A DNA stretch of 40,201 nucleotides from an uncultured Flavobacteriales bacterium (GCA_937899835.1 CALCCE010000020.1:1-40201), one strand, 5' to 3'; shown: positions 25,603 to 40,201, counted from the first letter of the stretch. Notes: generated by a model from the sequence alone, not told the origin. A program made the numbers and translations.

Positions 25603-25627
25603 ATCGGGCTTAGAACTGAAGCCCGAT
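25603..25627. terminator. Hairpin between folD and the SpoIIE-type phosphatase, spanning the latter's stop codon
   Basis: ATCGGGCTT (25603-25611) and AAGCCCGAT (25619-25627) form a perfect 9-bp stem with a 7-base loop. The phosphatase stop codon (25610-25612) lies at the stem-loop junction. It sits in the right place to terminate both convergent genes, but neither side has a clear T tract. Confidence 0.45.
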
Positions 25628-27397
25628 GACGAGGATATCGTCTACCTGTTCTAATTCACCTTTCCAGGTTTCGATGGAATCATCGAGAAATTCCCGCTGG
25701 TGCGTCATGGGCTTGCCATGCAGGTCCATCAACATCTTTTTGAAAGCGCTATACTTCAATTTCTTTCCTTTCGGTCCGCCAAACTGATCGGCATAGCCAT
25801 CGGAGAAAATATAGACTGAATCGCCTTTGTGCAATTCGATCTCGTTGTTGGTGTAGCGTGCCTCGGTGTTTTCGTAGTAATTACCGATGGCAATTTTATT
25901 CGACTTGAATTCGTGCAATTCACCGTTGCGGATGAGGTATAAGGAGTTATAAGCCCCGGCATACTGAATCATCGGCTCCTGTTTGTTGAAGCTTACTACG
26001 GCCAAATCCATACCGTCCCTTACCGTGGTTCCGGCACTTGCTTGTAGGGTATCGCTCAGCCTTTTGTTCACCTCATCGAGAATCTTGGCAGGTTCTACAA
26101 GGCCTTGTTCGCGCACTGCTTCGCTCAGCAGGTTGTGACTCACAATGGACATAAAGGCGCCAGGAACTCCGTGGCCAGTGCAGTCGGCAGCGGCAAGTAG
26201 CACTTGATTGCCGATGGTTTCCATCCAATAAAAATCACCGCTAACAATGTCTTTGGGCTTAAACAGCACAAAGTGTTCGGGTAAAGAGGTCTCTAAGTCA
26301 GAATCTGCGGGTAGAATAGCTTCTTGAATGCGTTTCGCGTAGATAATCGAGTCAGTTACCTGATTGTAGAGTTCGGCAATTTTCAGGCTTTGTAGTTCAA
26401 TTTCTTCTTTCTTTTGCACTACCTCTGCGGTGCGAAGACGGACCTTTTCTTCCAGTAAGCGCTCGTTTTCCGCCAAATCAGTACGCATCGTTAACAAGGC
26501 CTTACCCAAGACATCCTCGTCACTCAAGGGTTGGAAAGGAGTATTGTACTTACCGGAACCCACATCGTTGGCAAAATCCTTGGTTTGCTTCAGGCCGTTG
26601 ACCACTTTGTTGAGGGCCATGGTCATCTCTCCAATCTCATCGTTGGTGATTTCAGGGGTCTTAGTAGGAAAGACGCCACGACTAAGATCAAGCAACACGA
26701 TGCGCAGGAAATTTACGGGAGAAACAATGGACCGGGTAGTAACGATAGCGATGAATATGCCAGCAATGATCAATCCGATTCCAAGGGAGATGATCAAGGT
26801 TTGTAGCAAGCCAAAGGAATCTACCATGGCGTCCCGCACATCCCTGGAGCTGGTGGCCTGCAATTGAATCAAAGCATCCACTTTTTCCAGAATCTCGTCG
26901 GTCTTCATGTAGATCTCACCGCCCTGGTCCACCATACTATTGGCAATGAAGCGGTTCTCTGGCTCTTCGTAGCTCTCAAAGCTGTTGAGCATCGTTTTCA
27001 CTTCCAGGTGCAGGTCAAAAAGCGTGTTGATGTCTGCGAAAACCAGTTCCATATCCGCTTTTTGCTCATCGGTCCAATAGTCAGAAAGCGTCATGATCTG
27101 ATCCCGGAGTTCAGCATACTCCTTTTCCGACAATTGGTTAAGCTCCAATTTGTCGGGGTTGTCTTCAGAACTTTGGTAGTGAACCCAGTTGTAAATGAGC
27201 ATTTTGGACCGTACCGTCAACAGTTTGAGGTCACCCAATGCATTTAAAGAAGGGTTGTAGATAGTATTGATCTGAGTATCAATCTCCCTGGAATCTTTCA
27301 ACGTATTGAAAGTGGTAATGAAAGCCACTACCGTTGAGAGAATTATGACGGAAAATCCAAGACTTATCCGTCTACCTATGCTGAACCTAAATTTCAT
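25610..27397 (-). CDS. Membrane sensor with HAMP and SpoIIE-type PP2C phosphatase domains
   Basis: 595 residues. Two membrane helices (about 11-31 and 197-220) enclose a helical periplasmic sensor resembling the four-helix bundle of chemoreceptors (about 32-196). A HAMP domain follows (about 221-275), then a coiled coil (about 305-345) and a PPM/SpoIIE phosphatase (about 370-595). Metal-binding positions are present: Asp388 (SGDFYW), Asp405 (AADCTGHGVPGAF), Asp533 (FSDGYADQFGG), Asp586/587. SpoIIE-type phosphatases usually dephosphorylate anti-sigma-factor antagonists or similar phosphoproteins. No STAS protein or anti-sigma kinase is nearby, so the substrate is unknown. It is third in a row after a YfiR-like and a TPR gene (gap 28 bp). 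Confidence 0.9.
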   Translation of the reverse strand: MKFRFSIGRRISLGFSVIILSTVVAFITTFNTLKDSREIDTQINTIYNPSLNALGDLKLLTVRSKMLIYNWVHYQSSEDNPDKLELNQLSEKEYAELRDQIMTLSDYWTDEQKADMELVFADINTLFDLHLEVKTMLNSFESYEEPENRFIANSMVDQGGEIYMKTDEILEKVDALIQLQATSSRDVRDAMVDSFGLLQTLIISLGIGLIIAGIFIAIVTTRSIVSPVNFLRIVLLDLSRGVFPTKTPEITNDEIGEMTMALNKVVNGLKQTKDFANDVGSGKYNTPFQPLSDEDVLGKALLTMRTDLAENERLLEEKVRLRTAEVVQKKEEIELQSLKIAELYNQVTDSIIYAKRIQEAILPADSDLETSLPEHFVLFKPKDIVSGDFYWMETIGNQVLLAAADCTGHGVPGAFMSIVSHNLLSEAVREQGLVEPAKILDEVNKRLSDTLQASAGTTVRDGMDLAVVSFNKQEPMIQYAGAYNSLYLIRNGELHEFKSNKIAIGNYYENTEARYTNNEIELHKGDSVYIFSDGYADQFGGPKGKKLKYSAFKKMLMDLHGKPMTHQREFLDDSIETWKGELEQVDDILVIGLQF

Positions 27398-27425
27398 TAA
27401 CTCAATTCCCGATCAATGAGGGAAC

Positions 27426-28346
27426 TTATTGTTTGTTGGGGTCCATACCAGGTTCTACTCCTTGTTTCGAATCAATTTCCTCCAACTGGCGCTCGTACTC
27501 CCTTGATTTTTCAACGTCGTTCAAACTGAAGTAAATACCTGAAAGTCCAATGAGTGTTTCGCGTCTTTCAGGATTAAGCGCATAAGCTCTTTTCATGTAA
27601 GGAAGGGCCTTGAGAAACAAAGCAATACAAATTTCTTGCTTCTCAATGAGTTCGTCCAATGGCGCGCCATAGTCCATTGTATCAATGATGTGAACTGCTT
27701 CGTTGTAGAAGAAGATGCCAAGGTTGTAGTTACCACTAAGATTGTTGGAATCAAGGTCTAAAACCTTGGTGTATGTCTCAACCACCTTTTCGTATAGCTC
27801 GCGGTCTTTCACTGTTGCCTCTTCATACATTTTATTGTAAGCAGAGCCAAGAACCAAGTAGAATTGAATGTCCCGATCGTCAAAGTTCATCTCGGAATCA
27901 ACTTCCCGCATGAGTTCTTTGAAAAGGTTGTAATGCCTTATCGCGGTTTGAAAATCACTGGAGTCTAATGCAAAGGCGGCATCATTATAAAGCGTAGAAG
28001 CGAGATAATTGAAAGTCTTGTGGATGTTTTCCACATATTCCTTTTTCTCCGCGTCCAGCGAGAGCGCTTTGCGATAAGATGAAATGGCTTCGAGCCGAAA
28101 GGTATGAGCTGTAGACAAGTTTTTGTCGGTTTTAAACAGCTCTTTGTAGATGTATCCACGGATGTACCAGGTGCGGGTTTGATCGGCCAGGGTAGGATCA
28201 GAGGTTGCCTTATCTATCAAAAGTTTGGCTTCCTCGTACTCCTTTTCGCTAATCTTGGCCGCAGCCTGCCCAACTAAGTTGAACTGAGCCATGACCCCCG
28301 AAACCAGGAACAACAGGAATATGAGTAATGTGAGGCGCTTGAGCAT
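27426..28346 (-). CDS. Exported TPR-repeat protein of a YfiR/phosphatase module
   Basis: 306 residues with a signal peptide (MLKRLTLLIFLLFLVSGVMAQ), so periplasmic or surface-exposed. The rest is almost wholly helical with tetratricopeptide-like repeats, for example ISSYRKALSLDAEKKEYVE, KVLDLDSNNLSGNYNLGIFF and YMKRAYALNPERRETLIGLS. TPR arrays bind partner proteins. It lies between the YfiR-like gene (25 bp upstream) and the sensor phosphatase (28 bp downstream), so a role in linking the two is a natural hypothesis. The function is otherwise unknown. The C-terminus is acidic and short. Confidence 0.82.
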   Translation of the reverse strand: MLKRLTLLIFLLFLVSGVMAQFNLVGQAAAKISEKEYEEAKLLIDKATSDPTLADQTRTWYIRGYIYKELFKTDKNLSTAHTFRLEAISSYRKALSLDAEKKEYVENIHKTFNYLASTLYNDAAFALDSSDFQTAIRHYNLFKELMREVDSEMNFDDRDIQFYLVLGSAYNKMYEEATVKDRELYEKVVETYTKVLDLDSNNLSGNYNLGIFFYNEAVHIIDTMDYGAPLDELIEKQEICIALFLKALPYMKRAYALNPERRETLIGLSGIYFSLNDVEKSREYERQLEEIDSKQGVEPGMDPNKQ

Positions 28347-28371
28347 CGTACTGGGGTGGTGATTGCGTTGG

Positions 28372-28902
28372 TTAGTACACTTTAGAGGCTAACTTTTCCA
28401 AAGTCACGCTAACTTTTAGCTTTCTGTTTTCCACTTTTGTTTTATTTAACTCAAACTTCTGCCTTTGGTTAATGATCACAAAGTTAATACCTGGGATGTT
28501 GTTTACCAAATCAGAGCTTTCTGTAACTATCAGAGTTGGAGCACTATCCAACTTTGAGAGGGCATTAGAAAGTTTCGATTCATTCATCTTCGGTATGTAC
28601 AAAACGTGACATTTACCAATGTCGGAGTCTGAATTGTATTTCTGAACTTGTATGCTTTGAGTTGCTACTTTTTTCGTTTTAGACATGTTACTGAGCTCAT
28701 TGTAGAGTGGTGAATCTCCCAATAAGCCAATCACAAAGTTTCCTTGCTTGTATTCCTTAGGCCACTCAATATATCGGGCAAAGTTGTAAATGAAAATGGC
28801 TTTCATCTTAGAATTGGTGTCAGGGTTGGTTTGCACCGATGTCCCTGCAGACAGCAATCCCATTGCACAAAAGAGTAGCGCGATTTTTATTACCTGACCC
28901 AT
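28372..28902 (-). CDS. YfiR-family (DUF4154) periplasmic protein
   Basis: 176 residues with a signal peptide (MGQVIKIALLFCAMGLLSAGT). The family hallmark is the early segment KMKAIFIYNFARYIEWPKE, followed by the FVIGLLGDSPLYNEL strand-helix unit, KCHVLYIPKMNESKLS and TLIVTESSDLVNNIPGINFV, and the closing VTLEKLASKVY. In Pseudomonas, YfiR is a redox-sensitive periplasmic repressor of the diguanylate cyclase YfiN. No diguanylate cyclase is present here; instead a TPR protein and a HAMP-phosphatase follow. Only one cysteine remains in the mature part, so the disulphide control described for Pseudomonas YfiR probably does not apply. It is the first gene of the module. Confidence 0.85.
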   Translation of the reverse strand: MGQVIKIALLFCAMGLLSAGTSVQTNPDTNSKMKAIFIYNFARYIEWPKEYKQGNFVIGLLGDSPLYNELSNMSKTKKVATQSIQVQKYNSDSDIGKCHVLYIPKMNESKLSNALSKLDSAPTLIVTESSDLVNNIPGINFVIINQRQKFELNKTKVENRKLKVSVTLEKLASKVY

Positions 28903-29060: not shown

Positions 29061-32000
29061 TTACTTATTCGTCTCTATTAGCAGGAATTCTGTTCTACGG
29101 TTTTCAGCATGCGCTTCAAGTGGGCACCAAACCCCCGAAACACAGCCATTGGCTGGTTGGGTTTCTCCAAACCAATCTCCTTCCATCCGTTCCGGAGCCA
29201 CCCCTCTTTTAATCAGGTAGTTTAGAGTAGCGACTGTTCTCCGGCGGGAAAGCTCCAGGTTGTAACGCGCATTGCCGCGGATATCCGTGTGCGATTGGAT
29301 GGCGATTCGAATGTTGGGGTTGGATTTGAGCCAACTGGCCAAACTATCCAGCTTGTTTCCATCCTCACTGCTAATCCGATCTTCATCGAAAGCGTAAAAT
29401 ATCGTAGGGAACGCTTGATTCCTAATGATTGGTGCAGGCTCCGGAGGAGGAGTAGGATCAGGTAGGGTACTGGAATCCACCCCAACTATCTCGTTCAGTT
29501 CGCCTTTCATAAAACGTGCAATGTCTTCGGCCTCAATCAATACGATAACGTTGTTGTCGCGCTTGAGTGGAGCATATACGAACGCGCCATCGCTCATGGC
29601 GGTGCTGGTAATCACTTCTCCATCAGGATTGAGGATAGATACCTTGAGGTTTGGATCGCTTTCGGCCAATCGAATCAGGTAGTTTTCATCAGGGTCTAGC
29701 TCTTTGAAGTGGAACTTACCCGCACTGTCGGTTACCGCCACTGCGATGATCTCACCGTTGTCGTTCACTGCATAAACTTGCAAACCTGAAGGGTAATCGC
29801 CGGGGAGGGTTTGATAAATCTGGCCAAAAACACCGGCATCATCCGGCAATTCCGATTCGTCAGTGGCTGAAATGGCACCCATACCTGATACTGCTTCTAC
29901 CGGTAGGGCAGTGAATACAAATTGTCCATCTTGTAAGTTTTGGATCAATTCTACGGGTTTACCCGATTGTTCGGAGATTTGCAATTCCGCATCTGCAAGG
30001 TTAAGGGAATCGTTTTCGGCCAAACGAATGAGGTAATTTTGGTCAGGGTTCAACTTGCGAAAACTGAAGGAGCCGTTTTCATCGGTAATCACGGTAGCCA
30101 CCACATTATTGTTCTCATCCAACAGCTCAAGCACTACCCGATCGGCGGGTAAGCCTTTGTATTTGAAAGTTCCCTTGACGTAGGGCGCCTGGTCCTCGGC
30201 TACCATAACCCCCATGCCTGCCACTTCTTCTGCTGGTAGCGCCTTGAATACAAAAGTGCCATCGATCAGCTCCTGCACCAGGTTCAGTTCTCGGCCAGAT
30301 TGCTCAGTAATCAGCAATTTCGCATCCTGTAAATAAGCATCGTCGGCTTCAGCTACCCGTACACTATAGTTTTCGTCGGGCTTGAGCTTATAAAAAATGA
30401 ACCGTCCGGCTTCATCAGTAATCACAGTGGCGATCACCTGGTCATTGTCATCCAGCAGTTGAAGCACCACATTGTCTGCTGGTAAGCCTTTGTACTGGAA
30501 AACGCCACTGATGTAGGTAGCTTCTTCGGCTTCGGTCACCAAAGCAATAATGTTATCTTCCTTAGATACCTTCCGGAAGGTGTAGCGGCCTTTATCGAGC
30601 GGCTCTCCCACATCGGTAATTCGTCCATTTTCGTTCAAAAGAACCACCTGAAATTCGGCATCTTCCTCCTTCAGCTGGAACAGGGCTAGTTCTTCAGGCT
30701 TCAGCCCTCTGAATACAAACTTGCCCTTGCTATCGGTAAAGGTCACAGCGATGATCTCACCATCATCGTTCACCGCATATACTGCCATTCCCTCTGAGAA
30801 ATCACCCGGTAGTTTTGAAAATATCTGCCCGAATATTTCCAATTGTGTCATTTCGTAATCTTCCTCTGAAAGCTCTGGTAAGTTTTCGATCACCTCGGCG
30901 GTCAACGGACGGAAGCTAAATACTCCCTTTTTGAGTTCATAAATGGGTACAACACGTTTTCCATTCTTATTGACCATGAACAATTTGGCTTTTTCGAGCA
31001 GCGCCTTGTCCTCTTCAACAATTCTTACCAGGTAGTTTTTGTCCGGGTCGAGTTGCGAAAACTTAAAGTATCCATCTTTATCCGTCCAAATTTTACCCAC
31101 TACACGGTCTTGATTATCCAAGAGTTCCAACAGCACATTGGAAGCGGGTAGGCTATCGTATTGGAAAATTCCGGCAAACTCCAAGCCCGACTCTTTCATT
31201 ATCGGGGGCAGCCAAACGAATTGATAGATGTCGTCACTGCCGCGTCCTTCTTCCCGATCGGAGGAAAAATAACCCATTGTATCATTGGCAAAGCAAATTC
31301 CAAAGTCGTCAGCCGGTGAGTTGACGGGAGCTCGAAGGTTTTCGGGTTCGGCCCATTTGCCATTGAGTTGACTTGTTTTAAAAAGGTCGAGCCCGCCGTA
31401 GCCGGGATGGACGTTGGAAGCAAAAAATAAGTCCCCATAACCGTCGACAGAAGGGAATACCTCATTTCCGGAAGTATTCACGGGTTTACCCAGATTTACG
31501 GGCTTGCCCCAGGCTTCGCCAATGCGATCACAATACCAGATGTCCAGGCCTCCCTGGCCACCTTCCATATCAGAGGCAAAATAGATTCGATTGCCATCCG
31601 CGGTAAGGTAAGGGTGGCCCACCGAATATTCAGAACTGTTGTAAGGGAAGGCTACTAGCTTACCTAATTTTTTGCCTTTGAATGCCGCCGAAAAAATTTG
31701 CATCTGGTTTTTGTGCTTTCGGCTGCGGCTGGTTTGGCTCACCCTGGTGAAATATACCACGCGGTGCAAGGTGTCAATGGCAAGTGGGCCATCGTGGTAA
31801 TCGCCATTGATTCGGTTGGAAAACAAGCTTGCCTTCTCAAAACCAATACCTTGATTATCGTCAAAAGGGGCGAAATAAATGGAGAGGTAGGGAGTCTGGG
31901 TAGCAGAAAAGGTATTGTCGTTTACCTGATCATTTCCCTGCTCGGTAGTAATGATCAAGCCATCGTTATACACCACCGGACTAAATTCTGCTAATGACGA

Positions 32001-32480
32001 GTTAAGGTTACTGAGTTCCCTGATTTTATACGTTGGGGCTTGTACCGCCCAATCGTCGAGATAATTGCAGCTCTGAAGGAAAAGCCTACCCAGAAAGCTG
32101 TCCGGATTATCTTCCAAAAAGAATTCGAATTGACGACGAGCCTCAATGGTTTTCAGGTTGCGTTTTAAGACTTGTCCATACCGGAGCCGTGCACTTTTCG
32201 GGGCATCGGGCAGGGTAATGAGTTTGGCCAGCAACACTTCAGCATCGTACCAATTGCGCAGGTACTGGTTGCAAATGGCCATCCTTTCAACGATGTGCAC
32301 ATCATTCGAATCCTTGTCGAGGCTTCTTGAGTAAGCCTCCAAAGCTTCTGCATAGCGGTATTGCTCAAATAATTTATCCGCCCTTGAGTTTTGAGCACTG
32401 CTGGATAGCACTAGCCCAAACATCAGACCAGCTACCAAAAGGAAGCGAAACAATGATTGAATATGTAGTGGGTAGTTCAA
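29061..32480 (-). CDS. PorE-like OmpA-family protein: TPR, beta-propeller, five internal repeat domains, peptidoglycan-binding domain
   Basis: 1139 residues with a signal peptide (1-30, ending SSSAQ). TPR-like helices span about 33-145; PD40/WD40-like propeller blades about 165-425 (PYLTADGNRIYFASDMEGGQGG, FPSVDGYGDLFFASNVHPGYGG-type blades). Next come five ~100-residue carboxypeptidase-regulatory-like beta domains (about 435-990), then a Pro-rich linker and an OmpA C-terminal domain (about 1025-1137; IQSHTDIRGNARYNLELSRRR) that binds peptidoglycan. The T9SS protein PorE has the order TPR, propeller, one regulatory-like domain, OmpA; here that domain is multiplied to five. It starts 12 bp after the PorP/SprF-like gene, so the two probably form an outer-membrane complex anchored to the wall. 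Confidence 0.9.
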   Translation of the reverse strand: MNYPLHIQSLFRFLLVAGLMFGLVLSSSAQNSRADKLFEQYRYAEALEAYSRSLDKDSNDVHIVERMAICNQYLRNWYDAEVLLAKLITLPDAPKSARLRYGQVLKRNLKTIEARRQFEFFLEDNPDSFLGRLFLQSCNYLDDWAVQAPTYKIRELSNLNSSLAEFSPVVYNDGLIITTEQGNDQVNDNTFSATQTPYLSIYFAPFDDNQGIGFEKASLFSNRINGDYHDGPLAIDTLHRVVYFTRVSQTSRSRKHKNQMQIFSAAFKGKKLGKLVAFPYNSSEYSVGHPYLTADGNRIYFASDMEGGQGGLDIWYCDRIGEAWGKPVNLGKPVNTSGNEVFPSVDGYGDLFFASNVHPGYGGLDLFKTSQLNGKWAEPENLRAPVNSPADDFGICFANDTMGYFSSDREEGRGSDDIYQFVWLPPIMKESGLEFAGIFQYDSLPASNVLLELLDNQDRVVGKIWTDKDGYFKFSQLDPDKNYLVRIVEEDKALLEKAKLFMVNKNGKRVVPIYELKKGVFSFRPLTAEVIENLPELSEEDYEMTQLEIFGQIFSKLPGDFSEGMAVYAVNDDGEIIAVTFTDSKGKFVFRGLKPEELALFQLKEEDAEFQVVLLNENGRITDVGEPLDKGRYTFRKVSKEDNIIALVTEAEEATYISGVFQYKGLPADNVVLQLLDDNDQVIATVITDEAGRFIFYKLKPDENYSVRVAEADDAYLQDAKLLITEQSGRELNLVQELIDGTFVFKALPAEEVAGMGVMVAEDQAPYVKGTFKYKGLPADRVVLELLDENNNVVATVITDENGSFSFRKLNPDQNYLIRLAENDSLNLADAELQISEQSGKPVELIQNLQDGQFVFTALPVEAVSGMGAISATDESELPDDAGVFGQIYQTLPGDYPSGLQVYAVNDNGEIIAVAVTDSAGKFHFKELDPDENYLIRLAESDPNLKVSILNPDGEVITSTAMSDGAFVYAPLKRDNNVIVLIEAEDIARFMKGELNEIVGVDSSTLPDPTPPPEPAPIIRNQAFPTIFYAFDEDRISSEDGNKLDSLASWLKSNPNIRIAIQSHTDIRGNARYNLELSRRRTVATLNYLIKRGVAPERMEGDWFGETQPANGCVSGVWCPLEAHAENRRTEFLLIETNK
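29511..31178 (-). repeat. Five tandem regulatory-like domains in A-B-A-A-B order within the OmpA protein
   Basis: Type A units carry F-x-Y-x-(G/S)LPA-x-(N/R)V-(L/V)LxLLD followed by ITDExGxFxFxKLxPDxNYLxRxAE (protein residues about 435-535, 657-755, 767-865). Type B units carry IFGQI(F/Y)xxLPGD followed by VYAVNDxGEIIAV (about 547-650 and 881-990). Types A and B share the downstream TDxxGxFxFxxLxP core, so all five descend from one domain. The last three form an A-A-B block. Confidence 0.8.
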
Positions 32481-33518: not shown

Positions 33519-34358
33519 TTAACGTGTTAATTCAACCCATCCTCGATAGGTACGACTCCCTACTTTAGCAATGTAGAAATAGGTGCCTACTGGCGGATCG
33601 TTGCCGTTACTGGTACGACCGTCCCACAAAACAGTGGTGTTGTTGTAGTTTTTTCCTTCCCAAATCAAGGTTCCATAGCGGTTAACGATGAAGATTTCGT
33701 TATCAGGAAATCGTTCGATGTTATCCACAATCCAGGTATCGTTGTGTCCATCTCCGTTTGGAGTGAGGCCCGAATAGAATTTCAATTCACAAGGATTGCC
33801 GTCTTCAAGGCCTACTTCGAAGGTGTAAATTCCAATACAACCATCGTTGCTGGTGACGGTAATGGTGTAGCTTCCGGCAATCAGATTAGATGTACTACGA
33901 CTGGTATCTCCGTTGCTCCAAACGTAGGTGTAAGGAGCATCACAACCGTTGATGGCTCCATTTTCAATAAAAATGGCTCCATTAGCTGCTCCTGCACACG
34001 ATTCGTTGAACACCAAGGCGCTGTCCAGGTTCACCAGGCCACTTCCTTCTTCCAAAGAAGGTTGCTGAAAGCCTTGGGTGAGTTGAAAAAGACCACCTAA
34101 TCCTACGGTTCGCACTTCTGTTTCACCCACGGTGTAGGAAATAGAGCCAGCGCCAGTGGCATCGAATCCGCCAGCAGATCCAACAACCTGACGTTCTAAA
34201 GTTTGGGCATTGACCGAGAGGTCCATCATCCAACAGGCAACAACAAGTAAAAGCGCAATAATGGTGCTGCTGCTAACCTTCAAGGCAGGAGTGGAATTGA
34301 AGACCGTCCACCGCATGAATTGGGCAAAATAAGGGCGATATGTGGGTGCCTCCTTCAT
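33519..34358 (-). CDS. Small exported protein with SprB-type repeat and type B T9SS C-terminal domain (CHU_C)
   Basis: 279 residues. Its ATG overlaps the previous gene's stop (ATGA at 34355-34358), which fixes the start; the signal sequence (about 27-51, STIIALLLVVACWMMDLSVNAQ-type) is preceded by 26 residues. The order is a Bacteroidota module with GSISYTVGETEVRTV (about 55-100), one SprB-like repeat with GAANGAIFIENGAINGCDAP and AGSYTITVTSNDGC (about 115-180), and a CHU_C domain (about 190-279) with GLTPNGDGHNDTW, NRYGTLIWEGKNY and VGTYFYIAKVG. CHU_C marks type B T9SS substrates, attached at the surface with help from SprF-like proteins, one of which is the next gene. It may be an anchor for the fibres encoded upstream. 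Confidence 0.9.
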   Translation of the reverse strand: MKEAPTYRPYFAQFMRWTVFNSTPALKVSSSTIIALLLVVACWMMDLSVNAQTLERQVVGSAGGFDATGAGSISYTVGETEVRTVGLGGLFQLTQGFQQPSLEEGSGLVNLDSALVFNESCAGAANGAIFIENGAINGCDAPYTYVWSNGDTSRSTSNLIAGSYTITVTSNDGCIGIYTFEVGLEDGNPCELKFYSGLTPNGDGHNDTWIVDNIERFPDNEIFIVNRYGTLIWEGKNYNNTTVLWDGRTSNGNDPPVGTYFYIAKVGSRTYRGWVELTR

Positions 34359-36664
34359 CGTTGTGCTTGCTCTTCAGTAGTTGTTTGGTTCGTTTGACTG
34401 TCCATCCATGCTTTGAGGATCACCAATTCTTCACGCAGTTCCTGTATTTGTTGGGCCAGCACTGTGTTTTGATCTTCCAACGATTCATTTTGAGCATGAA
34501 GGGTTTGAATGGCATTGATGTAAGCCAGGAAAATCGGGTCGTTGTTCAGCGATAAATAACCGTCTTTTTGCATGAAAACCGCTTCAGGAAATACTTCCTG
34601 AACTTCTTGGGCCAGTAAGCCAACGTGTGTAGTGTCCGACGGGTGGTTTCTAACATTACCTGTCTTGTAGTTGTACAGTACCGGATGTAGCGCTAAAATT
34701 TCAGGGAGTCCCTTGGAAAAGTTTCCATGTACATCCTTCAAACGTGCATCCGAGGTCGTCGTCCAGGACCCTCCTCCAGGCTTAGAGGCAGTACCGTTTA
34801 CTTCTAAGGTAGTGGTAGGAGCATCGGTTCCTATACCTACTTGCCCTCCATTTAAGTCAATCGTTAGTACCTCAGTTCCATTGCGATCGAAGAAAAATTT
34901 GTCGGAGTTATCGCTATAGCGAAGTCCCCAATTGGGGAAGCTGGTACTGTGCGAAATCACATAGCGGTCGGTATTGGCAAAACCCGAGGAAAACATATAA
35001 ATCATGGGTGAATTCGAGCCATTCGTTGCTGGAAACGTGATGGAAGCCAAAGGATCGGTGAAGGAAAGATCACCTTCGGTTCCCGATACCTGGAATTTAT
35101 CGCCATTGCCCACGGTGAAGGTAGCCGTTGGGGAGGTATCTCCAATACCTACGTTACCACTCGATAGGATGGTCATCCTGTCGGATGCGGAGATAACGGT
35201 AGAGGTGCCAGTAGAAAAGGTGATTTGGGAAGCTTGAACTTCGAAATTACCCGGTGTAGAACCGCTGCTTGCCGCTTGAATAATGCTGGTACCCGAAAAA
35301 TTACCAATGGCCAAATGCGGAGTCGCTGGATGCGCAATAGAAGAGTGGGTTAGAAAGATGCCAAACCCATCCACATTGAGCTCATTGGAATTATCGTTGG
35401 TCGCAATGGAAACACTGCTGGAAAAGTAGTTGTTGTCTTCCCCTTCCATGTACACACCATAGGTAGTGCCTGAACCCGAACCATTATCCGTTCCAAAATA
35501 CATATAATTGGTGCCGGCAGAGGGAGAGAGCTTGGTATAATAACCGTACAACTCCTCACTTGAACTTGAAGTGCCATCGATTAAGGATTGTACCCCGTAC
35601 TTTTCGGCACTCCCCGAGTTGTTCATTACTACTTCCAAACCTACTTTATTGGCTGAACTATTGTAGTTGTTCTCAATCAAAACTCCCTTTGAGCGAGATA
35701 AGCTACTGGCCACAACAACATCCAATTGATGCGTAGTTCGAGGAACAATTGAACCAATTCCCACACTGCCCAAAGCATTGCTGCGGTAAATGTTGTTACC
35801 ACTAATGGTCCATGCCGGGTCTTCCCATGACGCTCCTCCAAAAGCATCAGAGGTAAGCAGCCGTCCATTTGCGCTTCCTGAGCTTATTCGAATGGTAGAA
35901 ACATTCAAGCCGCCATCGATCGTAACGGTAGAATCTGGAGAATCACAATTGAAACAAAACCCGTTGTCGTTAAAAAGCAGGTAAGAGGAAGGATCGTTGG
36001 GTAGAGTGTCACCGGCGTTTCCACTGGTCCAATGGTAAATTCCCGATCGGCCATTCAGGAAAAAATATCCACCTGCCGCACCTGTGTCGTTGTAAAAAGG
36101 CTTTCCTGTGGCATCTAAAAAGAAGTTGTTGCCGTAGTAAGCTGTTAAGTCAGGCAGGCTTGTAGAACCACTCATTTGCAAGGTGTTGCCAATGTGCAAA
36201 TCAGCAGTAGGAGTGGACTGGTCGATGCCGAGGTTTCCATTGCCGGCCAGCACCATTCGTGCCTGTGCATTCGTTCGAAACTGCAGGTCGACAGAATCAG
36301 TAGTACCCAAAAAGTTGGTTCCCGGCAGGGTACTACCATTACCGGTCAAGGTCCAGTTGGTACCAGAACCAGGATGCGTCCAGGAAGTACCGTTCCACCA
36401 GCGAAATCCAGGATTGACATCGGTTTGGAATACCATGAGGCCAACCGCAGGACTCACAATGGCATTGCGTTGTGCTTGGGTCATCCGAGGAACAAGGAAC
36501 CCTTTTGCAGTATCGCTGACATCCAGCATAGCACTTGGGTCGGGGGCGCTGCCATCTCCGTTTATTGAGATGCTTTGGCCCGAACTAAAGAGAGACATTA
36601 GGATCAAGCAAATCATAGGGAGACCGCTTTTGATATAAATGCCTGTGGTTTGGTGAGACTTCAT
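34355..36664 (-). CDS. Tail-fibre-like surface protein with S74 intramolecular chaperone
   Basis: 769 residues with a signal peptide (about 12-30, GLPMICLILMSLFSSGQS). An N-terminal module (about 45-100; SAMLDVSDTAKGFLVPRMTQ) is common in Bacteroidota fibre-like proteins. The middle is Gly/Ser/Thr/Asn-rich beta repeats, including VGIG-x-x-x-P-T-x-x-x-x-V units (NVGIGDTSPTATFTVGNGD, QVGIGTDAPTTTLEVNG). The C-terminus is a Peptidase_S74 domain starting TTSDARLKDVHG, with the Ser638/Lys643 dyad that drives self-cleavage in phage tailspike chaperones. It ends in a coiled coil (about 715-755). S74 domains trimerise the fibre and then cut themselves off. No T9SS C-terminal signal is present. It is followed by CHU_C with an ATGA overlap. 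Confidence 0.9.
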   Translation of the reverse strand: MKSHQTTGIYIKSGLPMICLILMSLFSSGQSISINGDGSAPDPSAMLDVSDTAKGFLVPRMTQAQRNAIVSPAVGLMVFQTDVNPGFRWWNGTSWTHPGSGTNWTLTGNGSTLPGTNFLGTTDSVDLQFRTNAQARMVLAGNGNLGIDQSTPTADLHIGNTLQMSGSTSLPDLTAYYGNNFFLDATGKPFYNDTGAAGGYFFLNGRSGIYHWTSGNAGDTLPNDPSSYLLFNDNGFCFNCDSPDSTVTIDGGLNVSTIRISSGSANGRLLTSDAFGGASWEDPAWTISGNNIYRSNALGSVGIGSIVPRTTHQLDVVVASSLSRSKGVLIENNYNSSANKVGLEVVMNNSGSAEKYGVQSLIDGTSSSSEELYGYYTKLSPSAGTNYMYFGTDNGSGSGTTYGVYMEGEDNNYFSSSVSIATNDNSNELNVDGFGIFLTHSSIAHPATPHLAIGNFSGTSIIQAASSGSTPGNFEVQASQITFSTGTSTVISASDRMTILSSGNVGIGDTSPTATFTVGNGDKFQVSGTEGDLSFTDPLASITFPATNGSNSPMIYMFSSGFANTDRYVISHSTSFPNWGLRYSDNSDKFFFDRNGTEVLTIDLNGGQVGIGTDAPTTTLEVNGTASKPGGGSWTTTSDARLKDVHGNFSKGLPEILALHPVLYNYKTGNVRNHPSDTTHVGLLAQEVQEVFPEAVFMQKDGYLSLNNDPIFLAYINAIQTLHAQNESLEDQNTVLAQQIQELREELVILKAWMDSQTNQTTTEEQAQR

Positions 36665-36673
36665 GGCAAATAG

Positions 36674-39600
36674 TTATCGGCGAATGTAAATGCAACGAAA
36701 GGCGTTCGATCCACTGGAAGGATCGTCGTTGGCGGTGGCTTGCGGATTTCCGTTTCCAACTTTTCGTGCGGTGTTGGAAGTACCATCGTCTACCCACTCC
36801 CAGTTGTCGGCCATATTGGTTAACGAAGTTTGAGTAAATGCCCCATACCATTCACCCCAGGTAGGCAATTTCCGATTGTTAGCTGCGCAGGTTGCTACAG
36901 CGTTGAACCAATTGGATGCAGTTCGTTCAGTGTCTTCAACGCAATAGATGTCATTGACCGGCACAGTACCGGTAGGACAAGCATTTCCGGTATCGGTAGT
37001 GAAGGAAACCCAGTCGGTGCCATTGTATCCTTCGAAGTCATTGCCGGTCCATTGGATCATTCCTGCAGCCGGTGACAAACCGGCGTTAAGGGTATCGATT
37101 TTAATCGCTCCTTCCACGTCCAGCGCTGCTTCAGGTGTATTGGTGCCGCCCACTTTCAAGCTACTGGAAAGCACATTTTCGGTTTCACCTGTCATGTAAA
37201 TGCCGTAGTGTTTCCCAGAGCCACTGGCAGTTACGTCCGCACGATAAGCGTAGCTATTCCCTAAGGTCGGGTTCATAAAGATTTGGCTACCGAAAATTTC
37301 GGTGTTAATCCCAAAAGTTCCGTTTACAACGGTTTGAGAACCATATTTTTTACCTGTTCCAACGTTATCCATCGTAACAAAAATCCCGGTTTGGTCGCTG
37401 GAACCATCGAACAAACTCAGCACCTCCATACCAAACTGGTTGCCTGTGCTGTCGGGAATTTCCAGGTATAAATTAGAGCTGGTGTTGCTAGTAGAGCCAA
37501 TAGAAACACGACCCGAAGGGCGGAAAATGTTGCTGCCACTTACGGTCCATGGGGAAGTAAAAAGCGTGCTGGGGTCTGTCCAAGTTGCGTTGCCCAATAC
37601 ATCTACCGCGGAGAGAACGTAGCCAGGAGACGCATTTTCAGAAATCAAAATGGAATCTGCGGCAATCTGTCCTTTCACATCTAATTGGCCACGGGTAGCA
37701 TCTCCACCGAGGCCCAAACTGTCGTTGATGAACACGTTTCCTTGTTCAAAGTAGCCACTGTATCTCTTCCCTGAGCCTTTAACCGATACGAACAATCCGT
37801 AGGTCAAAACATTTCCAAGTGCCTCCAGTTCCATTCCAATAGCGGTATCGGCTCCTAAAGCAGAACCTCTAAAGGCAATAGCCTCTTGAGTTAATCCAGG
37901 AGATAAGGTAGAGGCCGCATTGGAACTTATCCCGTAAACTTTAAGACCATCTTGGACATTGGTGAAGATCCCAAAGTTGTCTGCAGAGGGGTTTCCAATT
38001 GAATTGAAAAATCCTGCCAAACGACCGCCCGAAGCACTTCCTCCGGAGTTATTTACGGTTAAAGCGACTGCAGCTGAAGAGCCAGTGTAATTGTTGTTGA
38101 GAACAACAGTGCTTGAATCGTTACCCACTACAGATAATTTAGCAGGAGAATCCGAAATACCAATACCTACGTTTTGATTCAAGTTATAAACCATCGTATC
38201 GTTGACCACCCAATCGGTATCATTAGGAGAACTGGCGTCCCAATAAGCTCTTCCGAGTGCATCAGAGCGGAGGTAAGCACCATCAACAGCATTAGTTGGC
38301 AACCAAAGGGTATCTGCACGCAAGCGACCATTGGCCACATCTAACAAGGCTGCAGGACTGGTCGTTCCAATACCTACCTTGCCTAAAGTACCGGCTCCTG
38401 AACCTCCTTCTACGAACATGGTGGCAAGAGTAGAGTTGAACCCAATGGCCAAACTGTTGGTGGTGTTGTTCACAATACGATTGGCGTTGTCGATCCCTAC
38501 GCCAAGCACCATAGATCCGGTTCCGGTTGCCCGAAGCCAACTTCCCATCGCTGCAGATCGTAGGCCAGTTGCGGCATTAAAATGCCCCAGAGCAAAAGTG
38601 TAGGATTGATCAACCGTGTCATTGGCTCCCGCTACAAAATTGAAACTACCGGTAGATAGAATGGTGTTTTGATTACCCGTGATGAATCCATTCTGAGCAG
38701 AAGAATTAACGAAGTTATTTTGTCCCGATGCCATAGAGTACTGTCCATCCACTTCGTTGGAGTTACCAAAGGCGGTGGAGTTGAGCCCATCTACAACGTT
38801 GTCAGAACCAAAAGAGGCTGAATTATTACCGTCAGACTCGTTGTTGTCTCCAAAAGCTACCGAGTTCGTGCCCAGGCGGGAAGAGTTCCATTCTACACCA
38901 TCGGCAGTACCTGCTCTGAAAGCACCGGTGGACTTGTCGAAAAACATCCGTACGTCTTCACCACTATTGTCAAAGGTTGCAGAGCCAACCACCATGCCTC
39001 GGTTGTAATGCGAAGCAATAGGCCGGATGATTCCTACCGTAGAATCTGTAAACAGAACGGTATTGGTATTGAGTGAGTTAAAGCTTAGGTTGCCATTCCC
39101 ATCGGTCATCAACACATCTCCGTTGCTTCCATCGGTAGAAGGGTAGAAGAGAGTATCAGGAAAAGACCCTCCTGCCCAGGTGCGGAAAGTACCGTTCACT
39201 TGTAGAAAGTCCGTGTTGAAATCACCATAGACCAACGGATCATCGGAATTGGTATTCTCGATGTACAGTTTATTCTCTGCGAAGGTATCGTTTTGTGCAG
39301 CCCGATAGCCAAGGAAGACGTTGCCATTCCCTTGGTTATTTAATCCTGATTGAGCACCTAAAGCAACATTACGCTCACCAGCAGTATTTTCTACCAGGGC
39401 AGATTCTCCAATGGCGGTATTTTCAAATCCAGTTTCCAACTGACGTAAAGCAGAGCTGCCGAAAGCAGTGTTACCTTGTCCAGTTGTAGACCTAACTAAG
39501 GTTCGGTTTCCAACACCGGTGTTGCCACTACCGGAGGTGTTATCATGTAAACTTGCTTCTCCAATCGCTACGTTATTATTACCAGTAGTATTTTTTTGCA

Positions 39601-40201
39601 TTGCCTCATAACCAATAGCCACATTAGCGATTCCTTGTCCTCCCGTGCCTTGAGTTTCATTCAGTGCCTGGTATCCAATACCAATATTCGCTTCATTGGA
39701 AAGAGCGCTTAAGGAATCCTGGGCTCCGGCGTCCTCGCCGATGTAGATATTATTGTTAAAGTTCCGTGGCTCAATCCCTCTGTTGGTGAACCGAAATTCC
39801 CGGATCCCGTCAATTGTAATTCTTACAGTCGAATCAACAGGAGAAACAAAAGCAGTTGAGTTCCCCAAACGAATTCTGGTAGAATCATCTGTGGTGTTAA
39901 GAGCGGCAATATCAATTGAAATCGAATCCCCCGTTTGGTCAATCAACACAATGTCGGTACCTACCACTTGCCCGGAAACCAAGGTGTCTTCGAAAACAGA
40001 TTCGGGAATGGTGGCGGTGAAGTTGATGCCATTCTCCGTCACGGTCAGCAAACGAGTGGAGTTGTTAAACATCACAGTGTCCAGGGCCTCATTGCTCGCG
40101 TCTAAATCACCGTCAGCAGTAATGTGAGATGCGAAGTCGGCGGAGTCCAATTGTCGCTGCGCAATTTCATTGGCTATGGCCGTTCCCAGCGCGGTAGAGT
40201 C
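36674..40201 (-). CDS. Giant fibre/adhesin-like protein with YadA-head-like repeats and a C-type-lectin-like C-terminus, 5' truncated
   Basis: The frame is open to the right window edge, so the N-terminus is missing; at least 1175 residues are visible. Numbering from residue 1 at base 40150, a first block of head-like repeats (about 133-285; NVAIGYEAMQKNTTGNN, NTAFGSSALRQLETGFEN) and a second (about 425-555; SVAFGDNNESDG, STAFGNSNEVDG) resemble trimeric-autotransporter heads. VGIG-type beta repeats follow (about 590-1050), with clear similarity to the neighbouring S74 fibre. The last ~100 residues (Cys1058-1158) form a C-type-lectin/FGE-like domain (WFNAVATCAANNRKLPTWGE, NWEWVDDG, FRCIYIRR). 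There is no S74 domain. It ends 9 bp before the S74 fibre gene, so they are one operon. Confidence 0.85.
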   Translation of the reverse strand, partial: DSTALGTAIANEIAQRQLDSADFASHITADGDLDASNEALDTVMFNNSTRLLTVTENGINFTATIPESVFEDTLVSGQVVGTDIVLIDQTGDSISIDIAALNTTDDSTRIRLGNSTAFVSPVDSTVRITIDGIREFRFTNRGIEPRNFNNNIYIGEDAGAQDSLSALSNEANIGIGYQALNETQGTGGQGIANVAIGYEAMQKNTTGNNNVAIGEASLHDNTSGSGNTGVGNRTLVRSTTGQGNTAFGSSALRQLETGFENTAIGESALVENTAGERNVALGAQSGLNNQGNGNVFLGYRAAQNDTFAENKLYIENTNSDDPLVYGDFNTDFLQVNGTFRTWAGGSFPDTLFYPSTDGSNGDVLMTDGNGNLSFNSLNTNTVLFTDSTVGIIRPIASHYNRGMVVGSATFDNSGEDVRMFFDKSTGAFRAGTADGVEWNSSRLGTNSVAFGDNNESDGNNSASFGSDNVVDGLNSTAFGNSNEVDGQYSMASGQNNFVNSSAQNGFITGNQNTILSTGSFNFVAGANDTVDQSYTFALGHFNAATGLRSAAMGSWLRATGTGSMVLGVGIDNANRIVNNTTNSLAIGFNSTLATMFVEGGSGAGTLGKVGIGTTSPAALLDVANGRLRADTLWLPTNAVDGAYLRSDALGRAYWDASSPNDTDWVVNDTMVYNLNQNVGIGISDSPAKLSVVGNDSSTVVLNNNYTGSSAAVALTVNNSGGSASGGRLAGFFNSIGNPSADNFGIFTNVQDGLKVYGISSNAASTLSPGLTQEAIAFRGSALGADTAIGMELEALGNVLTYGLFVSVKGSGKRYSGYFEQGNVFINDSLGLGGDATRGQLDVKGQIAADSILISENASPGYVLSAVDVLGNATWTDPSTLFTSPWTVSGSNIFRPSGRVSIGSTSNTSSNLYLEIPDSTGNQFGMEVLSLFDGSSDQTGIFVTMDNVGTGKKYGSQTVVNGTFGINTEIFGSQIFMNPTLGNSYAYRADVTASGSGKHYGIYMTGETENVLSSSLKVGGTNTPEAALDVEGAIKIDTLNAGLSPAAGMIQWTGNDFEGYNGTDWVSFTTDTGNACPTGTVPVNDIYCVEDTERTASNWFNAVATCAANNRKLPTWGEWYGAFTQTSLTNMADNWEWVDDGTSNTARKVGNGNPQATANDDPSSGSNAFRCIYIRR
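38486..39754 (-). repeat. Two blocks of YadA-head-like repeats in the giant fibre gene
   Basis: Block 1 (about 39296-39754) encodes about seven units of N-(V/T)-(A/G)-(I/F/V/L)-G-x-x-(A/S/T)-x containing a GN-N turn. Block 2 (about 38486-38878) encodes about eight units of S-x-A-x-G-x-x-N-x-x-x-G. The periodicity and residue pattern match the left-handed beta-roll heads of trimeric autotransporter adhesins (Hep_Hag-type). They are protein-level repeats; the DNA has diverged. Confidence 0.75.

Follow-up and report, generated by a model that had tools for sequence, protein, structure and literature searches.

Two regulatory systems of Pseudomonas aeruginosa come closest to the locus described here, a three-gene operon encoding a YfiR-family protein, a tetratricopeptide repeat (TPR) protein and a sensor phosphatase, which we refer to as the triad. 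It is located on a 40,201-nucleotide stretch of DNA from an uncultured Flavobacteriales bacterium (GCA_937899835.1 CALCCE010000020.1:1-40201; hereafter the window). With YfiBNR of P. aeruginosa and HmsCDE of Yersinia, as presented in the main text of PMC3375315, the triad shares the family and fold of YfiR and a HAMP effector whose two transmembrane helices enclose a periplasmic domain. Residues of the proposed effector-binding face are also conserved in the triad YfiR. In contrast to YfiBNR, the output is a phosphatase instead of GGDEF, the sensor is predicted to be helical instead of PAS, and a TPR gene is added. In the second system, SiaABCD, SiaC is phosphorylated by SiaB, dephosphorylated by SiaA, and activates the diguanylate cyclase SiaD (PMC7647112, PMC8457831). 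The triad phosphatase resembles SiaA in its HAMP-PP2C architecture and active site, and SiaB- and SiaC-type proteins are encoded in the genome (PMC7647112). However, SiaD and any other GGDEF protein are missing from the triad genomes searched, SiaB and SiaC are encoded outside the triad operon, and YfiR and the TPR protein are additional. We propose, with a probability of roughly 0.6, that YfiR and the TPR protein gate a SiaA-like phosphatase that would dephosphorylate SiaC, without recognisable synthesis of cyclic di-GMP (c-di-GMP).

Swapping of the output behind YfiR is not new. Malone et al. 2012 described YfiR-YfiN[PAS/HAMP] as a modular system with GGDEF-EAL, HPT, histidine kinase and methyl-accepting chemotaxis protein (MCP) outputs (PMC3375315, main text). 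These systems resemble the triad in placing YfiR beside membrane sensors with varied outputs, but differ in their PAS sensor and in belonging to Proteobacteria; the main text of that paper mentions no phosphatase output, helical sensor, TPR partner, SiaBC link or Bacteroidota example. A preliminary description of the triad, which knew of no characterised example, needs correction on this point. In the open literature (subscription journals lay outside the search), we found no paper on the triad operon, and for YfiR in Bacteroidetes or DUF4154 only Pseudomonas papers were relevant. A further parallel is provided by RsbU-type PP2C phosphatases, for which activation through a coiled-coil linker has been described and HAMP has been named as an input domain (PMC12143880). 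In RsbU, too, a dimeric sensor and a helical linker precede the SpoIIE/PPM domain, but its activator is RsbT, a partner in the cytosol, whereas the input proposed for the triad is periplasmic YfiR/TPR.

Conservation of the triad in Bacteroidia

The triad consists of yfiR, the TPR gene and the phosphatase gene, all on the minus strand and separated by gaps of 25 and 28 nt (Table 1). The three open reading frames (ORFs) and both gaps as given in the preliminary description were exact on re-check. Conservation was surveyed in 296 Bacteroidia genomes from 166 genera, using E <= 1e-100 as threshold for phosphatase orthologs. Such orthologs, most of them full-length and approximately 40-55% identical, occurred in 83 of the genomes and 40 of the genera. 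The preliminary description had staked its proposal on the co-occurrence of the three genes in other genomes, and at 93 of 103 loci the order YfiR-TPR-phosphatase was indeed kept on one strand, with gaps mostly between -4 and 30 nt and many 4-nt overlaps. The remaining 10 loci comprised three at contig ends, two triads failing the cut because of called gene starts or gaps, and five phosphatases without a TPR gene; at four of the latter, YfiR was encoded close by on the opposite strand. Since some of the genomes are closely related, the 103 loci are not all independent. The order recurs across the class, and the arrangement is not due to chance. Separately, the triads L079 and L080 from two of the sampled genomes had identical scores and lengths, and one of these genomes, G030, has two triads; a mis-binned contig in a metagenome assembly is a possible source of this duplicate.

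YfiR, the TPR protein and the sensor

The YfiR ORF matched the Pfam family DUF4154 'YfiR/HmsC-like' (PF13689) with 118 bits (E 4e-34; cut-off 24.9). It reached 113 bits with the NCBIfam model YfiR_like_TOL0243, slightly below the cut-off of 125, and 26 bits with the NCBIfam YfiR equivalog, far below the cut-off of 85. The AlphaFold model of the protein is of moderate confidence (mean predicted local distance difference test, pLDDT, 68), and its 15 top fold matches in the PDB were all P. aeruginosa YfiR (4zhu/4yn7 best; E 5e-7 to 2e-5, template modelling score, TMt, 0.67-0.75). A single-sequence search of the PDB yielded no match below E 0.1; besides the fold search, only a profile search linked the protein to P. 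aeruginosa YfiR (E 0.03). Residues F151, F162 and E163 of P. aeruginosa YfiR, its proposed YfiN-binding face, align with F141, F150 and E151. Among the YfiR orthologs, F141 and E151 are conserved to at least 95%, and F150 is at times replaced by Y. The mature protein has a single cysteine, C98, and thus lacks the disulfide-forming cysteines of P. aeruginosa YfiR, which are a feature of that protein and are not taken to define the wider YfiR family. The TPR protein matched PF13181 (30 bits) and PF13414 (29 bits), and a search of PHROGs with it gave no match; all 93 TPR orthologs possess a hydrophobic N-terminus.

Two hydrophobic segments are present in the phosphatase protein, at approximately residues 11-30 and 196-219. 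Residues 33-190 of the sensor are predicted to be entirely helical, with pLDDT values mostly of 72-90 over residues 80-180 and lower ones elsewhere, and a Pfam search with this domain gave no match, CHASE8/PAS included. Together with the lack of an AAVVF motif, this ruled out a YfiN-like sensor. The HAMP domain was detected just below the Pfam cut-off of 25 (21.7 bits, E 2.5e-4). The linker (residues 297-361), predicted as helix at low pLDDT, belongs to the best-conserved regions of the protein.

A profile of the sensor matched 103 of the 296 genomes, mostly at triads, and at some loci the sensor was fused to other outputs. At 20 non-triad sensor loci inspected, these outputs included hybrid histidine kinases, an MCP domain, GAF/PAS proteins and another SpoIIE protein. 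A YfiR gene was present at 12 of them, mostly directly upstream and otherwise approximately 2 kb off, in agreement with the tie of YfiR to the sensor domain put forward in the preliminary description. None of the 20 loci contained the TPR gene, which therefore appears specific to the phosphatase form. In the genome of the window, the gene for a third YfiR directly precedes one in which a related sensor and HAMP (30% identical) are joined to a GAF domain. As the sensor often adjoins YfiR also when it is fused to other outputs, YfiR probably goes with the sensor rather than with the output, and its partner is probably the helical sensor. The second YfiR gene of this genome (L014:658-6592) is flanked by those of a TonB-dependent receptor and a propeller/Y_Y_Y histidine kinase and abuts or overlaps each of them; since it adjoins this kinase, YfiR also pairs with another kind of sensor.

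Co-variation was determined from evolutionary distances in 42 non-redundant triads after removal of the catalytic-domain signal. Rates co-varied with those of the sensor at 0.51 for the TPR protein and 0.48 for YfiR, compared to 0.08 and 0.20, respectively, with HAMP, which is supporting and not decisive evidence.

The SiaA-like phosphatase and SiaC

The effector enzyme is a phosphatase, as the preliminary description had claimed. It matched SpoIIE (PF07228) with 62 bits over residues 397-594, and its sole sequence match in the PDB was 6k4e, SiaA-PP2C of P. aeruginosa (E 6e-39, residues 326-595), which was also the top fold match of the domain (TMt 0.77). The active-site residues of SiaA, D457, D474, G477, D600, G601 and D653 (PMC7647112), align with D388, D405, G408, D533, G534 and D587, which are conserved to 98-99%; at the sequence level, the catalytic residues of the SiaA-like domain are intact. 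The NCBIfam model of full-length SiaA (NF038263) reached 234 bits, where the cut-off is 700, and its match was confined to residues 265-594. Judged by this profile, the triad phosphatase is not a full SiaA. The preliminary description had named the genes correctly but had overlooked the likeness to SiaA, SiaC itself, the absence of GGDEF and an OmpA-domain gene upstream.

SiaC was found in 155 and the SiaA-like phosphatase domain in 151 of the 296 genomes. SiaC was present in all 151 genomes with the domain and occurred alone in four genomes only; it was encoded in 83 of 83 genomes with the triad-type phosphatase versus 72 of 213 others, and some triad genomes have a single SiaC. The genome of the window encodes seven SpoIIE and three SiaC proteins. 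Two of the three SiaC proteins adjoin a SiaB-type DUF6272 protein, and one of these pairs shares its operon with a further SiaA-like phosphatase. The threonine motif of SiaC, YxNTxS, is retained, and we consider SiaC the likely substrate of the triad phosphatase.

No GGDEF domain was detected in any of 60 triad genomes searched, the genome of the window and 59 others; the control search was positive in E. coli and seven others. This absence ruled out a c-di-GMP output. Since no GGDEF protein was found, SiaC must have a target other than SiaD. Both SiaB-SiaC pairs of the genome (L016:3210-7481 and L017:6541-10721) lie beside a gene for a TerB-ABC-ABC2 transporter of approximately 1030 amino acids (aa), and relatives of this gene occur near SiaBC in some of 20 further Bacteroidota genomes examined. 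The transporter is a possible output of SiaC without SiaD, and we regard it only as a lead.

Proposed pathway and alternative explanations

Conservation of the operon, the fold of YfiR, the SiaA-like catalytic residues, the absence of GGDEF and the co-occurrence of SiaC are established by comparison of sequence or fold. Neighbourhood and co-evolution suggest that YfiR and the TPR protein act on the sensor. In the proposed mechanism, periplasmic YfiR would bind the HAMP phosphatase at its helical sensor domain, and the exported TPR protein would either take part in this binding or modulate it. When the sensor is occupied, the packing of HAMP and the helical linker would shift and thereby change how active the SiaA-type PP2C domain is; the helical-linker mechanism with HAMP inputs that has been proposed for PP2C phosphatases (PMC12143880) would fit the conserved linker. 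By analogy with the characterised family members, the PP2C domain would remove the phosphate from the conserved threonine of a SiaC-family protein, counteracting a SiaB-type kinase whose gene lies elsewhere in the genome, and dephosphorylated SiaC would bind a target other than a diguanylate cyclase. By analogy with YfiN, control by YfiR would be repression. This is an assumption, because the partner is a helical bundle and not a PAS domain and is devoid of the AAVVF motif. The inhibitory rule that the preliminary description took over from YfiBNR is thus favoured by the conserved YfiN-facing residues but transfers less strongly to a sensor of this kind. More tentative, and in our estimate just short of even odds, is the wider claim that a periplasmic YfiR/TPR complex controls a SiaB-SiaC partner switch through the SiaA-like phosphatase widely in Bacteroidota, without c-di-GMP. 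The output of this switch may be the ABC-2 transporter that adjoins SiaBC, or envelope functions related to the type IX secretion system (T9SS).

Several observations weigh against the proposed pathway. Eight of the 20 non-triad sensor loci have no YfiR gene nearby, which means that the sensor does not require YfiR, and a motif resembling AAVVF, the proposed YfiR-binding motif of YfiN, is missing in 92 of 93 sensor orthologs. The co-variation test is weak at the numbers used, and the phosphatase model is poor as a whole (pLDDT 55). The counts for SiaC may partly be inflated by shared ancestry. In addition, a genome usually has several such SiaA-like phosphatases, and the co-occurrence therefore supports SiaC as a partner of the phosphatase family, not of this gene alone. 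Among the loci inspected, none combined the triad and SiaBC in one operon; the closest distance noticed was approximately 20 kb, in two genomes.

The alternative that survives best, although we regard it as unlikely, is that YfiR is a ligand-binding co-receptor which, once loaded, switches the sensor on, much as periplasmic binding proteins do with sensor kinases. Only the sign and the meaning of the binding of YfiR set this alternative apart from the proposed pathway. A helical bundle in place of YfiN's PAS domain would be in line with such a role, and sensing of an imported ligand would suit the TonB-dependent receptor genes that follow the third YfiR-sensor pair of the genome and overlap its second YfiR. 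In P. aeruginosa, however, where YfiR has been characterised, it represses its partner (PMC3375315, main text), and the proposed YfiN-binding face is conserved in the triad protein.

Somewhat less probable, and compatible with the proposed pathway, is a YfiBNR-like system with a replaced output, in which the upstream OmpA-domain protein would act as YfiB and, under envelope stress, sequester YfiR at the outer membrane. YfiB itself is of the Pal/OmpA type, and in triads of the same family yfiR is preceded on its strand, at a distance of 65-160 nt, by an OmpA-domain gene. However, this position is kept within the same family only, and the OmpA gene is found downstream in two other genomes. The OmpA protein is also a large one of the T9SS type whose gene adjoins PorP/SprF, so the adjacency may reflect a T9SS-type operon.

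Slightly less likely again, the operon might work as proposed on a different substrate, another STAS-type or an unrelated phosphoprotein, with SiaC serving other SpoIIE phosphatases. The number of SpoIIE and SiaC proteins in the genome of the window would allow for this, as would the different phosphatase in its SiaBC operon and the separation of triad and SiaBC at all loci seen. Against it stand SiaA as the only sequence relative in the PDB and the unbroken co-occurrence with SiaC, which includes triad genomes with a single SiaC. Mere co-transcription of YfiR and the TPR protein, with a separate role in the envelope and no control of the phosphatase, is very improbable given the strict class-wide order with its 4-nt overlaps, the repeated pairing of YfiR with the sensor also where the output differs, and the co-variation with the sensor.

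Table 1. Features of the triad and related loci (positions refer to the window unless a locus is named)
Feature	Position	Strand	Evidence
YfiR-family exported periplasmic protein, 176 aa	28372..28902	-	PF13689 118 bits; fold; first triad gene in 93 loci
Exported TPR protein, 306 aa	27426..28346	-	TPR Pfam matches; hydrophobic N-terminus; seen only with phosphatase form
Transmembrane sensor phosphatase, 595 aa	25610..27397	-	SpoIIE 62 bits; full-length orthologs in 83/296 genomes
Periplasmic helical sensor domain (predicted), residues 33-196 of phosphatase	26810..27301	-	All-helical AlphaFold prediction; recurs beside YfiR
HAMP domain, residues 220-272	26582..26740	-	PF00672 E 2.5e-4; conserved D253/E254/G256
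Long helical linker into phosphatase (predicted), residues 297-361	26315..26509	-	Predicted helix, low pLDDT; highly conserved
SiaA-like PP2C phosphatase domain, residues 376-595	25613..26272	-	6k4e sequence and fold matches; conserved active site
OmpA-domain protein, 158 nt upstream of yfiR	29061..32480	-	PF00691 59 bits; position kept only within same family
YfiR directly upstream of methyl-accepting chemotaxis protein bearing the same helical sensor, Bacteroidota	L248:3961-6226		

The window also contains, at 34355-40150 on the minus strand, what looks like a cell-surface fibre locus. It encodes a protein of 769 aa, which carries an endosialidase-chaperone (Peptidase_S74) domain at its C-terminus, adjoining a 1158-aa protein with weak YadA-head/ice-binding-like matches, and lies beside genes for a T9SS-sorted protein, PorP/SprF and OmpA.

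YfiR and SiaABC are both known as controls of c-di-GMP, and their combination without GGDEF, conserved class-wide, suggests that the YfiR input and the SiaABC relay are general modules not bound to c-di-GMP. Many SpoIIE phosphatases of Bacteroidota are uncharacterised, and for one of them the triad offers a concrete input and substrate that can be tested; the role of SiaC without a diguanylate cyclase also becomes directly addressable. If the proposed pathway is true, two circuits best known as c-di-GMP controllers would be joined here for a different output.

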